A stretch of 45,912 nt of DNA from IMG/VR virus record IMGVR_UViG_3300032085_001567, positions 1 through 45,912 of that record, one strand, 5' to 3'. Source of the DNA: a virus. Every line of letters begins with the position of its first letter. Within the stretch, counting starts at the first letter, position 1. The notes under the pieces were generated by a model. That model made no database searches and was not told the DNA's origin. It saw only the letters and a list, made by a program, of their open reading frames with translations. Shown here in pieces: positions 1,264 to 6,986 of the stretch. A program made the translations under genes and the position numbers.

Positions 1264-2115
1264 ATGGCGAAGCTCACCAAAGCCCAGGCCAAGGCCCATG
1301 ATCAAGCGTGTGAGCTTCTGAAAAAGGATTGGCTCAATCACGACGAGCGCCTGTTCGTCATCGACAATTGGCAGGAGAGCGCGACCCACATCAATAGCTC
1401 TGCGGGCGCATTCTTCACCCCGATCGAGCTTGCGCGGCACCACGCTATTGAGCTGCAGCAATTGAGCGGGCGCGTGATCGACCTTTGCGCCGGTATCGGA
1501 TCTTTGTCCTTCGCTCTCTGGGAGCAGTCCTACTACCAACGCGAGAGCCTTGAGATCGTCTGCGTCGAGATCAACCCGGCCTATTCCGAGGTGGGCAAGA
1601 AGCTCCTGCCCGAAGCGACATGGATCGTCGGAGATGTGTTCGATGTCCTGGACATGGGCCTTGGTCGCTTCCATGCCGCGATCAGCAATCCCCCTTTCGG
1701 CGCCATCAAGCGCAGCAAGAACGCGCCGCGATACACGGGCAGCGCCTTCGAGTTCCACGTCATCGATATTGCAGCGCACATGGCCGACTTTGGCGTGTTC
1801 ATCTTGCCCCAGATGTCGGCGGGCTTCGAGTTCAGCGGCAAGCCCTGCTATCGGCGCCAAGAGAGCGGCAAGGCGTTCGATTTTCAGCAAAAGACTGGCC
1901 TGCATTTCGAGGCTGGCTGTGGCGTCGATACCGCCATGTTCAAGGATCAATGGCGCGGCGTCTCGCCCATTTGCGAGATCGTGTGCGTCGATTTCGATCA
2001 AGACGACGTCCAAGAGCCTGCCCAGCCCGTAGCGCCCGCCGTCGAGCGCAAGGCAGAGCCCGGCCAGCCATCAACCGGAGAATCCCAGCTATCGCTTTTC
2101 GGAGATGCAGCATGA
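1264..2115 (+). CDS. N6-adenine DNA methyltransferase with C-terminal clamp motif
   Basis: The 283-residue protein carries a GAFFTP segment (48-53), the SAM-binding motif I DLCAGIG (73-79), an acidic motif II strand (VCVEIN) and the catalytic motif IV NPPF (142-145). This identifies a gamma-type N6-adenine methyltransferase, related in layout to HsdM or TaqI-like enzymes rather than the CcrM class, which has DPPY. No restriction partner is adjacent, so it is probably an orphan enzyme protecting or marking phage DNA. The last residues read QLSLFGDAA; QLSLF matches the bacterial beta sliding clamp consensus QL[SD]LF. Recruitment to replicating DNA is therefore a reasonable inference. The target sequence cannot be read from the protein. 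Confidence 0.85.
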   Translation: MAKLTKAQAKAHDQACELLKKDWLNHDERLFVIDNWQESATHINSSAGAFFTPIELARHHAIELQQLSGRVIDLCAGIGSLSFALWEQSYYQRESLEIVCVEINPAYSEVGKKLLPEATWIVGDVFDVLDMGLGRFHAAISNPPFGAIKRSKNAPRYTGSAFEFHVIDIAAHMADFGVFILPQMSAGFEFSGKPCYRRQESGKAFDFQQKTGLHFEAGCGVDTAMFKDQWRGVSPICEIVCVDFDQDDVQEPAQPVAPAVERKAEPGQPSTGESQLSLFGDAA

Positions 2116-2489
2116 GCCAGTGCAACGAGATCGGCGTCTATGAGCCCGACGAGCGGCTATCCCTCTCGCGCCCTGTGAAGAACTGGCGGGGCGGACCTCT
2201 TGGCGAAATCCGCCTCGCCAATCTCGGCACCCACTGGATTTGGGCAACGTCATTCCAGTTGTGGAGCGGAGACTGCTGGGGAAGTTCGTCGCCGCTGATG
2301 GACGTGGATCACACGCCCCACACCAATCACCGCGCCCCGACGCGGGAGACAGCCATAGAAGCCGCCAGTGCCCGTCTTCGCAAGAGCCTGTCCGATCGCG
2401 CCACGTCCTGCCGTGACGCCCGCGCTGTTATCGAATGGCTCGACACGCTTGTTCCCGATCAACTCGACCTGTTTGGAGCCGCAGCATGA
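2112..2489 (+). CDS. Phage hypothetical protein with C-terminal QLDLF clamp motif
   Basis: I chose the ATG at 2112, which overlaps the methyltransferase stop (ATGA), rather than the much longer open frame upstream that shadows the methyltransferase. The 125-residue product is Trp-rich in its first half and has a helical block (TRETAIEAASARLR) in its second. The C-terminus is QLDLFGAAA, nearly the same tail as the preceding methyltransferase. QLDLF is an exact match to the beta-clamp consensus. The function of the main domain is unknown; small phage proteins with this Trp-rich layout are usually annotated as hypothetical. Association with the replication clamp is inferred from the motif alone. 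Confidence 0.75.
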   Translation: MSQCNEIGVYEPDERLSLSRPVKNWRGGPLGEIRLANLGTHWIWATSFQLWSGDCWGSSSPLMDVDHTPHTNHRAPTRETAIEAASARLRKSLSDRATSCRDARAVIEWLDTLVPDQLDLFGAAA

Positions 2490-3433
2490 CCATCGACATC
2501 ATAGAGGCCGCAAAGGCCGATCGTCAGACCAAGCTCGACCAGATCCTCGCGCTCAAGCTCGACGTGATCGAGATAGACCAGTTCATCGCCAAGGCCCGCT
2601 CATATGCGGGAGATGGCGAAACCGAACCGCAGCCGCCAGTAGCTCCTGATCAGCTTGCAGAGGTGAATACGGTTGCGCAGGGGGGTGATAGAGAGCCGAT
2701 CGCGGCTGGTGCATCCCCCGAACCCATCACCACCATTACCCAGCCCGCCACGAAATACGAACGCGTCCTTGAAGCGCTGCGCAAGAACCCGAAGGCCAAT
2801 GCACGAGCGCTGGCGACCATTTCTGGATGCACGATCTCGACGGCAAAGGTTTATCTTTTGAAGGCGCGGGGCGAGATCGCGGACGAACGGGCTCATGCGG
2901 CGCCGGAGTCTGCCACGCCTGCTACTAAGACGAAGAAACAGATGATCTTTGACGCCCATCAGGGACACCCCGACTGGTGGGCAGAAAAGATTGCCGACGA
3001 AACCGGCATCGCTCTTGCGACGGTGCGCAGCTATGCGAGCGGGTTTAAGCTCAAGCTCCCGCCCAAACCATCGGGAGGGCAGAGCAAGGCCACGAAGGCA
3101 ATCCTGGCCACAGGGAAGCCGCAGGAGGCCAAAAAGCCGGTTGTGCAGGCAGTAGAGGCTAAAGAGCCAGAAACCCGCCCCACGATCCCCAATGAGCCGA
3201 TACGACCCGTACACAACGTGGTTCGTCAGCGGCCCAAGGGAACCATGTTCCGGCTGAGAAACGAGGATGGGCTTTTCCTCCATTGCGACCTGAACGCGAT
3301 GATCCGCAAAGGTCTGCGGTTTGTGGGCAAGCACGAATACCCATGGGAGGGGAGCGAGCGCCAGCTCTTGGCGGTCCGCAAGATGCTCCCGGCAACGATC
3401 GATCTGCGCGAGGAGGTAATCACCAATGGCTAG
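2486..3433 (+). CDS. DNA-binding protein with two HTH-like segments
   Basis: The start at 2486 overlaps the previous stop. The product has 315 residues. Two separate helix-turn-helix-like blocks can be seen, one near residues 90-130 (KANARALATISGCTISTAKVYL) and one near 155-190 (EKIADETGIALATVRSYAS). They are joined by Ala/Pro/Lys-rich linkers, and a compact C-terminal domain follows from about residue 245. The layout suggests a sequence-specific DNA-binding protein of the replication operon, possibly an origin-binding or regulatory protein. I do not recognise the family. It is followed, with overlap, by the GcrA homologue. Confidence 0.7.
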   Translation: MTIDIIEAAKADRQTKLDQILALKLDVIEIDQFIAKARSYAGDGETEPQPPVAPDQLAEVNTVAQGGDREPIAAGASPEPITTITQPATKYERVLEALRKNPKANARALATISGCTISTAKVYLLKARGEIADERAHAAPESATPATKTKKQMIFDAHQGHPDWWAEKIADETGIALATVRSYASGFKLKLPPKPSGGQSKATKAILATGKPQEAKKPVVQAVEAKEPETRPTIPNEPIRPVHNVVRQRPKGTMFRLRNEDGLFLHCDLNAMIRKGLRFVGKHEYPWEGSERQLLAVRKMLPATIDLREEVITNG

Positions 3434-3869
3434 GCCGTGGACACAGGCGCAGCAAGACGAAGCCGCCGATCTTTATCGCAAGGGCTACAGTTCATCTCAG
3501 ATCGCGGGACAGATCGGGCGCACCCGAAACAGCGTCATCGGTCGCCTGAGCCGCGACGGGGTCATGGGCAACGCCAACAAGGCCCGTCGGACCAACCGCC
3601 AATCGGCAATGAAGGCAGAGCGCACCCACACCAGGCAGACCAGCAGCCCTTTGCGCGCCAACCCGGATTCGGACGGGGTGAAGCTCCTCGCCGCCAATGT
3701 CTGGAAGCCGCTCCCCGGAACGAACCCCGTTCCTCTCGAACAGGTCGATGGCTGCCGCTGGCCTTTGGGCGAGACCAGGGATGACACGTTTTGCATGTGC
3801 AACGCGCCCAAGGTCGAAGGCTCGAGCTATTGCCCCACGCACAAACGAGCTTCGGAGCCGCGCCTATGA
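3426..3869 (+). CDS. GcrA-family cell cycle regulator homologue
   Basis: The N-terminal block (residues 5-45: SSSQIAGQIGRTRNSVIGR) matches the GcrA helix-turn-helix pattern. The C-terminal block has GCRWPLG followed by Cys110, Cys123, Cys125, Cys136 and His139, matching the C-terminal sigma-interacting, metal-site-like region of GcrA. Host GcrA binds RNA polymerase holoenzyme and activates promoters containing methylated GANTC. At 147 residues with both ends conserved, the phage copy looks intact. It probably redirects host RNA polymerase or tunes phage promoters (inference). Its neighbourhood, close to a phage adenine methyltransferase, is suggestive, although that enzyme is not of the CcrM class. 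Confidence 0.85.
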   Translation: MARPWTQAQQDEAADLYRKGYSSSQIAGQIGRTRNSVIGRLSRDGVMGNANKARRTNRQSAMKAERTHTRQTSSPLRANPDSDGVKLLAANVWKPLPGTNPVPLEQVDGCRWPLGETRDDTFCMCNAPKVEGSSYCPTHKRASEPRL

Positions 3870-4051: not shown

Positions 4052-4266
4052 GCAATGACGTGCCCACACATTGGAAGGTGAGAGCCTTGCGCCGACATAT
4101 CAAGTCCTGTGAGGACGCGGTGTGGTTTCAGGAGCGTCATGGCGACTTCAAGAGCCATGAGGCGGCCAAGGCATTGCTGCGGACGTTCAAGGCCATCCTT
4201 GCTGATTACGAGGCCCAGAAGATCGAGGAAGGTCTTCAGGGGCACAGGAGGGCGGCAAATGGCTGA
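4048..4266 (+). CDS. Small hypothetical protein with GTG start
   Basis: The reading frame is best started at the GTG at 4048, which overlaps the previous stop (GTGA), giving a 72-residue basic helical protein. The longer open frame upstream is a shadow of the GcrA-like gene. Its end overlaps the primase-helicase start at 4259. The run of one-base and four-base overlaps here argues for translational coupling. No domain was recognised. Confidence 0.6.
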   Translation: MSNDVPTHWKVRALRRHIKSCEDAVWFQERHGDFKSHEAAKALLRTFKAILADYEAQKIEEGLQGHRRAANG

Positions 4267-6613
4267 GCGCTTCACCGATGCCTATCTGGACGAACTGCGC
4301 TCCGCCCTGCCGATCACGCGCCTTGTCGGCGAATACGTCACGTATGAGGCAGGGAAGGGCCGCGAGGGCGATCAGTGGGCGTGTTGCCCGTTCCACGGCG
4401 AAAGCACGCCCAGCTTCCACGCCACCGACGACAAGCAGTCCTATCATTGCTTTGGGTGCGGCGTATCTGGCGATCACTTCAAGTTCCTGATCGAAAGCCA
4501 GGGCATGACGTTCCCCGACGCGGTCAAGACCGTCGCCGAGCTTGCGGGCATTCCATTGCCAGAGGGCGTCGATAACACTAAGGGGCCGGCGCGGGCACCG
4601 GAACACCCCAGAGCAGAGAAAGCGCCGCCACAGCCTTCCGCTGTGCGCGAGAAGCGTGTTCTGGTCGAAGCCTACCCCTACACCGACAATGACGGCGGGA
4701 TGCTTTATGAGGTTTGCCGCATCCAGATCAGGATGCCGGATGGCTCCTGGGCGCGGACCAAGGACGGCAAGGGCACATGGAAAGATTTCCGGCAGCGCCG
4801 CCCTTCCGGTTTACCTGATGGGTCAAAGGTGTGGGGATTGCGCGAGGGCGAATATATCCGCCCCGGGCCCGGCAAGGATTGGTCGCCGTGGGACCAGCGC
4901 AAAGCTGATGAATGGCCCGACCATGAAAGCCGGTGGTTTGAGGGCGTGGACCACACGATCTATCGTCATCCCGAGGTAGAGATTGCCATAGCCGAGGGGC
5001 GCCCGGTGATTATCACCGAAGGCGAAAAGGACGCCGAGACAGTCGAGGCCCTTGGCTTCACCGGCACCACGAACAGTTCTGGCTCCAAGCACTGGAATGA
5101 TACACATGCGGCTTGCTTCAAGGGCGCCGACGTCATCATTGCTCTGGACAATGACGTGGCCGGGGATCGCTCCGAAAAGATCGCCCGATCGCTGAAGGGC
5201 CTCGCCCGTCGAATCCGGGTTCTTGACTTTGCCAAGATCATCGAGGGCTTCCCCGAAAAGGGCGACATCACCGATTGGGTTGAGAAGTTCGGCGGCACCA
5301 CAAATGAGCTGGAAAAAATTATCGTGGGGTTGCCGGACTGGCGCCCACAAAAGCCGGTAGGATTCGGCGGCCGCGCCTTTTCAGACATTTCCGACAAGCC
5401 GATCGAGTATGACTGGCTGATCAAGAACCTTGTCGAGCGCAACGGTGTCGTGATCCTGGCCGGCGAAAAACAGGCGGGCAAGACCTTCGCCGCTCTCGAT
5501 ATGGGCATGAAGGTGGCCAGAGGGCTCCCCTACGGTGGAAAGAAGACCCGGCAGGGCGTCGTGATCCATCTGGCCATTGAGGACGGCAGGGGCGTCCGTA
5601 TGCGGGCCGAGGGGTATCGCCGGTTCAACGACATCAGCCCCGATCAGGACATTCCCTACATCGTCATGGACCGCGAATTCTCGCTGATGAGCGACGACGC
5701 GGTGAACAAGCTGATCCAGATCGCGCGGGAATGGGCCGAGTATTACGGCCTGCCCGTAGAACTGATCATCATCGACACATGGTCGGTCGCCACTGAAGGG
5801 CTCAACGAGATCGACGGGGCCGAGGTCGGCAAGGTGCTGGCCCGCATAAACCGGCTCAAGGACGAGACAGGCGCCACGATCTGCCTTGTCCACCACATGA
5901 ACGCATCGGGCTCAAGGGTTCGCGGCCACACCTCGATCGAGGCCAACGTGTCGAACGTGATCGAGATCAAGCCCGCCATGACCATCCCTGACAATCGCCG
6001 GGATCAACCCCGGCCAATCCTCGATGCCCAAGGGCGGCACGTCCGCTATGTCACGCTGACCAAGAACAAGAACGGGCTCAACAATATCAAGTGGAAGCTC
6101 TCGCTCGAGGTGGTGCATCTGGGCATAGACACAGACGGGGATGCGATCACCACTTGCGTGTGCGTTCCCGTAGCCAGAAATGAGGCGCAGCCGCCGAAAG
6201 AGCGCCGGTCGCTGTCTCCGGACCAAAGGCTGGTTTACGACGCTCTCATGGCCGCTCTGGAGGACAAGGGCACCGATATGCCGGCCGGGGTCAGGGCAGG
6301 GCCGCAGGTCAAGCGCGCCGTGTCGCAACCCGATTTCGTAGCCTATGTCCGCAAGCAGATGAACTTCACCGCGCCAGAGGATGAGATCGAGGCCCGGAAC
6401 AAGGAACTCGGCGCCTTCCTCAAGCGCACCACCATCAGTCTCATCAATGCCGGGTACATGGGCAGGGACAACGACAAGAAGGTGGTCTGGAGCCTCGGCC
6501 GGCAGGTGCAAGAGCCTGAGCCGCCACGAGACGATCCAGAACCGCCCCCGTCACTCCCCGATGATGTGAAACGCGAAATGGAGGGCACGCCCAATGACGA
6601 ACCGCCCTTCTGA
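4259..6613 (+). CDS. CHC2 zinc-finger primase / RecA-like helicase fusion
   Basis: I start this at 4259 (MAERFTDAYL), giving 784 residues. Residues 40-70 contain a CHC2 primase zinc site (Cys43, His46, Cys64, Cys67). A Toprim-type domain follows near 250-300, with EGEKDAE and the acidic DND motif. A P-loop ATPase domain then shows Walker A GEKQAGKT near 400 and Walker B LIIIDT near 500, as in AAA_25/RepA-type helicases. The protein should prime and unwind phage DNA at the fork, like T7 gp4 or P4 alpha in principle. The Pro-rich acidic C-terminus could be a contact tail. Its end overlaps the next gene by 20 bases. Confidence 0.9.
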   Translation: MAERFTDAYLDELRSALPITRLVGEYVTYEAGKGREGDQWACCPFHGESTPSFHATDDKQSYHCFGCGVSGDHFKFLIESQGMTFPDAVKTVAELAGIPLPEGVDNTKGPARAPEHPRAEKAPPQPSAVREKRVLVEAYPYTDNDGGMLYEVCRIQIRMPDGSWARTKDGKGTWKDFRQRRPSGLPDGSKVWGLREGEYIRPGPGKDWSPWDQRKADEWPDHESRWFEGVDHTIYRHPEVEIAIAEGRPVIITEGEKDAETVEALGFTGTTNSSGSKHWNDTHAACFKGADVIIALDNDVAGDRSEKIARSLKGLARRIRVLDFAKIIEGFPEKGDITDWVEKFGGTTNELEKIIVGLPDWRPQKPVGFGGRAFSDISDKPIEYDWLIKNLVERNGVVILAGEKQAGKTFAALDMGMKVARGLPYGGKKTRQGVVIHLAIEDGRGVRMRAEGYRRFNDISPDQDIPYIVMDREFSLMSDDAVNKLIQIAREWAEYYGLPVELIIIDTWSVATEGLNEIDGAEVGKVLARINRLKDETGATICLVHHMNASGSRVRGHTSIEANVSNVIEIKPAMTIPDNRRDQPRPILDAQGRHVRYVTLTKNKNGLNNIKWKLSLEVVHLGIDTDGDAITTCVCVPVARNEAQPPKERRSLSPDQRLVYDALMAALEDKGTDMPAGVRAGPQVKRAVSQPDFVAYVRKQMNFTAPEDEIEARNKELGAFLKRTTISLINAGYMGRDNDKKVVWSLGRQVQEPEPPRDDPEPPPSLPDDVKREMEGTPNDEPPF

Positions 6614-6986
6614 GGAACAGCTTCACATGTTCGGCGGCGAGCCGGAAAGGCTTGGGCACCCGCTTTTCACGGAACGCTGGAACAACCGCAAAGCCTTCTG
6701 GATCGGCGTGCATGTCGGCCACGGCCTGTCTGCCCCTGCGATCGAGAAAGCCCTTGGCGAGCAGGACACGGCCAATACCATCGCCCATATGGTCAACTTC
6801 TGGGGCTACAGGCTCGATGGTGATCAGCATACCCACGCAAAGCTGCGCATTCCGCTTTCGGCGAAGCACCGGACGCTGCATGCGAGTGAGGCACTGGCAC
6901 GGGACATGACACTGCCGGAGCTGTGCCAGCAGATACTCGAAAATGTCGCGAGAGACGATCTATGGAAGGCGGTAATCGACCAATGA
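6594..6986 (+). CDS. Hypothetical protein, clamp-like motif plus GcrA-like HTH
   Basis: A 130-residue product whose start lies inside the primase-helicase gene (20-base overlap). Near the N-terminus it carries QLHMF (residues 9-13), a degenerate version of the beta-clamp motif seen in two upstream genes. Residues about 30-65 contain a helix-turn-helix-like stretch (GHGLSAPAIEKALGEQDTAN) with the same spacing as the GcrA DNA-binding helix. The remainder is unrecognised. A DNA-associated role in the replication operon is plausible but inferred. Confidence 0.65.
   Translation: MTNRPSEEQLHMFGGEPERLGHPLFTERWNNRKAFWIGVHVGHGLSAPAIEKALGEQDTANTIAHMVNFWGYRLDGDQHTHAKLRIPLSAKHRTLHASEALARDMTLPELCQQILENVARDDLWKAVIDQ

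Follow-up and report, generated by a model that had tools for sequence, protein, structure and literature searches.

We consider it probable that a methyltransferase and the small protein encoded next to it (ORF2) in a viral genome both end in genuine DnaN-binding motifs held by selection at the protein level, with the methyltransferase most likely tethered to the host clamp, where it would methylate phage DNA during copying and where ORF2 would be recruited too. The window, meaning the whole stretch of DNA analysed, is an IMG/VR record of 45.9 kb (45,912 nucleotides) that encodes an integrase and an S24-type repressor, and it is therefore taken to be a temperate tailed phage or a prophage. 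Both genes belong to an early operon on the plus strand, which encodes a RuvC-like resolvase, the methyltransferase, ORF2, a DNA-binding-like protein, a GcrA-like regulator, a primase-helicase and more small proteins (Table 1).

The methyltransferase ends in QLSLFGDAA and ORF2 in QLDLFGAAA (within ...PDQLDLFGAAA). A further pentapeptide, QLHMF, lies near the start of a third protein of the operon, and the peptides of the record that bear the motifs are GESQLSLFGDAA, the terminal peptide of the methyltransferase, VPDQLDLFGAAA and PSEEQLHMFGG. The original prediction had described both tails and the position of QLHMF exactly. All three pentapeptides fit the clamp-binding pattern Q-aliphatic-x-[LM]-[FL]. 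Across the six reading frames of the 45.9 kb there are exactly two occurrences of QL[SD]LF, each adjoining the end of a real gene. Given the composition of the predicted proteins, 0.0005 proteins would be expected to carry QL[SD]LF within their last 12 residues and 0.012 at any position, versus two seen; for QLx[LM]F at any position the expectation is 0.13, versus three seen. These values are approximate, being drawn from ~14,000 aa of predicted proteins with a gene model that missed ORF2. In AlphaFold models both tails are predicted to be disordered, with pLDDT of ~50 over residues 251-283 of the methyltransferase and below 50 over residues 117-125 of ORF2.

Table 1. Positions of the genes and peptide features discussed, numbered along the window.
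Feature	Position	Strand	Basis
SAM-dependent N6-type methyltransferase, 283 aa, phrog_3820, motifs DLCAGIG and NPPF	1264..2115	+	profiles, AlphaFold
Predicted disordered linker joining the catalytic domain to the motif, ~residues 250-274	2011..2085	+	low pLDDT; unalignable in homologues
Clamp-binding-type motif QLSLF, methyltransferase residues 275-279	2086..2100	+	codons vary synonymously; shuffle test
GDAA and stop codon TGA (2113-2115): Shine-Dalgarno-like GGAG bases, ATGA overlap with next start codon	2101..2115	+	
ORF2, small protein without assigned function, 125 aa, no recognised fold	2112..2489	+	no Pfam/PHROG match
Clamp-binding-type motif QLDLF, ORF2 residues 117-121, disordered C-terminus	2460..2474	+	relatives; residues 117-125 pLDDT <50
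GAAA and TGA: again GGAG and ATGA overlap with next gene (2486)	2475..2489	+	
GcrA-like regulator, methyltransferase operon	3426..3869	+	Pfam GcrA 77.6 bits
Primase-helicase	4259..6613	+	Zn_ribbon_DnaG, Toprim, AAA_25
Protein without assigned function, 130 aa	6594..6986	+	no family match
Candidate N-terminal clamp motif QLHMF, residues 9-13	6618..6632	+	two relatives

The catalytic part of the methyltransferase is well defined. Residues 1-251 match the phrog_3820 profile (E 3.9e-101), the Pfam N6_Mtase score of 21.3 bits is above the cut-off, and the AlphaFold model (mean pLDDT 85.5) has a confident core over ~residues 1-249. In alignments of homologues, NPPF and D-x-CAG-x-G are invariant or nearly so. 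A fold search returned M.BseCI, HsdM subunits and CamA as the nearest solved structures, along with RNA methyltransferases, and no separate target-recognition domain was obvious in the protein. Judging from the predicted fold, DNA adenine is likely to be the substrate; since RNA methyltransferases match as well, this is not demonstrated.

Absence of the tail from homologues had been named at the outset as an observation that would refute the idea. When this check was run, homologues of both proteins were found to keep the tail, without its being universal in the methyltransferase family. Phage records, IMG/VR and GTDB genomes supplied the methyltransferase homologues, 141 of them distinct sequences with a definable tail after the domain; this set over-represents sequences related to the query, and its members are not independent of one another phylogenetically. 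The strict pattern Qx[SDNT][LM]F was present in 76 of the 141 tails (22 with QL[SD]LF and 54 others), versus a mean of 0.17 and a maximum of 2 when each tail was shuffled. Seventeen further tails have the looser Qxx[LM][FL], bringing the total to 93, versus a shuffled mean of 2.3 and maximum of 8. The linkers are variable in length and cannot be aligned, and the motif is kept after them. Its forms include QLSLF, QLDLF, QMDLF, QLNLF, QADLF, QASLF, QIDMF, QLALL and QMSLL, among which QADLF, QMDLF, QLNLF, QLALL and QMSLL match the degeneracy Q-aliphatic-x-[LM]-[FL] published for clamp ligands, in which QADMF is the internal motif of Pol III alpha (PMC11139829). Two tails finish in DLPLF, the pentapeptide through which Caulobacter MutS is recruited to the replisome (PMC8034640). 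Codons vary synonymously at all five positions of the motif, and we therefore infer that selection acts at the protein level. The tail is absent from methyltransferase homologues at seven loci and in Vibrio 13VV501A, in none of which a clamp was detected; since several such lineages are tailless, the tail appears to be dispensable for the enzyme.

The residues that follow the motif have a partly different origin. The codons GGA G.. GCN GCA TGA encode GxAA while giving a Shine-Dalgarno-like GGAG and an ATGA overlap with the next gene, so that GxAA is in part a nucleotide constraint. This arrangement follows both motifs of the record, and the ninth codon of the tail is GCA in 45 of 54 methyltransferase tails. 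It is thus conceivable that the tail serves mainly at the DNA level, as a ribosome-binding site with ATGA, or as a gene-end recombination cassette, the protein motif being incidental. For a cassette one can point to the minus-strand 75-aa protein of L192 (4857-4886), which has the terminal sequences of the ORF2 family (MSPICNEYGVYQA...LVPDQLDLFGAAA) at its two ends and a different middle between them. We regard such an explanation as barely tenable and largely refuted, because it accounts for GxAA only: the Q, L, S/D, L and F codons vary synonymously, the motif forms the very C-terminal end without GxAA in three homologues, and at three other loci it lies at the N-terminus. Many methyltransferase homologues also stop directly at the motif (QLSLF or QLALL followed by a stop codon). 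The earlier reading of a shared tail is refined accordingly for GxAA.

Other terminal peptides were seen in and around the methyltransferase family. Three homologues without QxxLF have a common terminal [AT]LDFGDW after differing linkers, which on sequence grounds is possibly a different docking motif. Some T4-like phages (RB16, RB43 and the phiM12 group) share the phrog_3820 catalytic domain and differ in having no DnaN-type tail; in RB16/RB43-type enzymes, from five loci, the variable linker is followed instead by a conserved terminal LFTFTIE, which may be a motif for the gp45 clamp of those phages. The RB16 proteins gp43, gp55 and gp33 terminate in SLNTLFGDDW, TLEMFL and TLDDFM. Small proteins neighbouring the methyltransferase at three loci (L059 1358-1663, L117 4829-5068 and L114 4825-5088) have the motif ends QLDMFWRAA, QLSLFK or QADLFDDLLG.

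ORF2 is a protein of fair model confidence (AlphaFold pLDDT 81.5) for which a search against solved and viral folds gave no significant match, and a genome search returned one weak, interrupted match only. All ORF2 relatives at 62-70% identity, together with the divergent L196 (40%), carry QLDLFG[AV]AA at the C-terminus. The Stenotrophomonas- and Xanthomonas-phage relatives, by contrast, are tailless at this end and begin with M(V)TLDQLDLF. The motif therefore switches ends while the domain stays recognisable, as would be expected under selection for a docking peptide.

The same tail was found on other viral proteins. Back-translated QLDLFGxAA followed by a stop codon was detected at 22 loci, and the QLSLF type at 7, in a scan of 2.9 million IMG/VR contigs; the permuted control QDLLFGxAA with stop gave 0 loci in the same scan. 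Because the GxAA-ATGA context was demanded, only one tail type is covered. The 29 loci include contigs that are nearly identical to one another. The carriers comprise phrog_3820, the ORF2 family, an HsdM-like N6_Mtase, several N6_N4_Mtase proteins and MethyltransfD12 (Dam-type), as well as a PAPS-reductase-like protein (assigned by resemblance, with no Pfam match) and several small proteins without known function. As for individual D12 methyltransferases, that of phage F116 ends in AQLDIFHDTKEPA with the motif QLDIF, that of Caulobacter phage Sansa ends in PQKDLFTHT with QKDLF, and QGQLF and QGYLF occur near the C-terminus in Synechococcus and Meiothermus phages; a Yersinia phage D12 methyltransferase was without a clamp-like terminal motif. 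PAPS-reductase-like proteins (L003 4579-5796; L209, L210) were seen with either an N-terminal QPTLF (Rhizobium phage N28_2) or a C-terminal QLTLFGAAA.

Taken together, the retention of the motif behind variable linkers, its change of ends in ORF2, its recurrence on unrelated methyltransferases, the predicted disorder of the tails and the empty permuted control give strong comparative support to the original prediction that clamp recruitment has been selected, in the absence of binding data. Recruitment need not mean targeting of methylation. The tails could block or remodel host replication via the clamp, in the manner of the Caulobacter clamp-binding toxin SocB, which inhibits replication elongation through its clamp motif (PMC9690074), and ORF2 might be a clamp-occupying inhibitor. 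ORF2 lacks a recognisable enzyme fold and bears QLDLF, the pentapeptide reported to bind the clamp most strongly (PMC11139829). It shares with SocB the usual DnaN-binding motif, without binding data of its own, and differs in having no family or fold match to any known protein. We nevertheless think inhibition unlikely, as the presence of the motif on several methyltransferase families better fits the tethering of an activity, and inhibition would also block the replication of a phage that lacks a clamp of its own.

A further possibility is that the xAA end is a ClpXP degron resembling a tmRNA tag, so that the tail sets the lifetime of the protein besides, or instead of, its location. Host tmRNA tags include ANDNYAEARLAA, ANDNNAKEYALAA and similar sequences. 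Terminal AA occurs in 76 of the 141 methyltransferase tails, and ANDN in 40, nearly always directly before the clamp motif (shuffled mean for NDN, 0.4). Outside this particular methyltransferase family, 36 of the 76 ANDN occurrences in the fetched loci lie within 13 residues of the C-terminus; 32 of these 36 ends finish in A, with a commonest spacing of 8 residues after ANDN, which is the tag length, and each of ten permuted tetrapeptides gave only 0-3 such C-terminal cases. DNA methyltransferases (MT-A70, C5, N6_N4) made up 8 of 10 ANDN-ended proteins checked, a share that is biased, the loci having been fetched around methyltransferases and several of the proteins being orthologues. For the two proteins studied here we hold this reading to be very unlikely: neither tail contains ANDN or qualifies as tmRNA-tag-like, many homologues stop at the motif, and the AA is in part forced by GCATGA. 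As a separate observation, many proteins of Rhizobiales phages, DNA methyltransferases being frequent among them and ten of the loci serving as examples, end in ANDN plus ~8 residues finishing in AA or VA and resemble the host tmRNA (ssrA) tag ANDNYAEARLAA. A broader proposal, which we put forward tentatively and with low confidence, is that tailed phages convergently fuse clamp motifs to many unrelated DNA-methyltransferase families for replication-coupled methylation, and that Rhizobiales-phage tails add ANDN...AA degrons by which unclamped enzyme would be destroyed by ClpXP.

The third protein, which opens with MTNRPSEEQLHMFGG, does contain QLHMF where it had been reported, and the role of this peptide as a clamp motif is plausible and weakly supported. 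No match to the protein was found in 385 genomes, and its two IMG/VR relatives are 80 and 75% identical: L015 keeps QLHMF, and L016 has QLGMF in a changed N-terminus. The L016 relative directly precedes a methyltransferase that, by resemblance, is D12-type and ends in QLTMFGAAQ. With only two relatives to compare, the putative clamp motif is suggestive only.

No DNA polymerase or clamp was recognised among the tested proteins of the record, and there was no PF00712 match to a DnaN-type clamp (the gp45-type PF02916 was not covered, and the record is possibly incomplete). In the absence of a recognisable DnaN, we infer that the host DnaN is the likely target. Many Rhizobiaceae-phage relatives encode their own DnaN, and T4-like relatives encode a gp45-type clamp. 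In own-DnaN phages the second position of the motif is mostly A, P or H in place of L, and a Leu to Ala change at this position of a consensus peptide lowers affinity ~40-fold (PMC11139829). The tail is absent from the T4-clamp phages RB16, phiM19 and phiN3; Ochrobactrum phage OC gave no PF02916 match. A rule relating possession of a clamp to the tail was considered and rejected, as the own-DnaN phages form one clade, with TM3_3_14B (own DnaN, QLSLF) as an exception, several phages without a detected clamp are tailless, and at most one event is involved. The primase-helicase terminates in ...GTPNDEPPF, and proteins of related loci end in DDDIPF, WEDIPF or DDIIPF; these ends resemble the C-terminal tip of SSB, another replisome docking peptide.

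The alphaproteobacterial regulator GcrA is a reader of adenine methylation that responds to m6A at CcrM sites, and a GcrA-like gene lies third downstream of the methyltransferase in the same operon. The methyltransferase might thus mark phage or host promoters for this regulator, the clamp tether only restoring the mark soon after replication. At one related locus a frame resembling GcrA, by sequence resemblance only, precedes the ORF2 homologue. Set against this, the target sequence of the methyltransferase is not known and GcrA-like genes are widespread among alphaproteobacterial phages, and we rate a role in GcrA marking as distinctly unlikely.

Tethering for methylation during replication remains a reasonable inference in the absence of binding or methylation data. 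By this mechanism the methyltransferase would be held on the host sliding clamp via its flexible tail and concentrated on newly replicated DNA. Phage DNA would be methylated while it is copied, and the inferred benefit to the phage may be protection from restriction, the marking of sites, or both. ORF2 on the same clamp could be accessory to this process or a modulator of the replisome.

Clamp motifs on mobile-element enzymes are already known. Transposases with a C-terminal QLxLF bind DnaN, one of them alphaproteobacterial, and the motif likewise lies at varying positions in transposase homologues (PMC4549789). Like those of IS transposases (e.g. Acidiphilium IS1634), the motifs described here would represent convergent acquisition of a host-clamp motif by an enzyme of a mobile element, at variable positions; the transposases catalyse transposition and their binding has been shown by experiment, whereas the activity here would be methylation. 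Established DnaN partners (Pol III alpha, Pol IV, MutS, Hda) have the same QL[SD]LF or Q-aliphatic-x-[LM]-[FL] motif in a disordered terminus, whereas here its carriers are methyltransferases and small proteins of phages, without binding data. The proposed principle, a methyltransferase tethered to a sliding clamp, is that of DNMT1 and PCNA, although DNMT1, a C5 enzyme of eukaryotes that carries a PCNA-binding motif, has no relation in sequence or target. We found no report of a clamp motif on phage methyltransferases in the open-access literature (subscription literature was mostly not covered), and a 2024 review of the beta-clamp does not mention methylation enzymes (PMC11139829).

Looking ahead, if the proposal is true, phages position modifying enzymes at the polymerase clamp and thereby modify DNA during its synthesis. 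This would offer a mechanism for early and uniform protection of phage DNA and a prokaryotic parallel to DNMT1-PCNA. The resulting rule, that any phage protein with a terminal QLxLF should be a clamp binder, could give roles to small uncharacterised phage proteins, and the tails would form a collection of naturally occurring clamp ligands, of relevance to antibacterials directed at the clamp.
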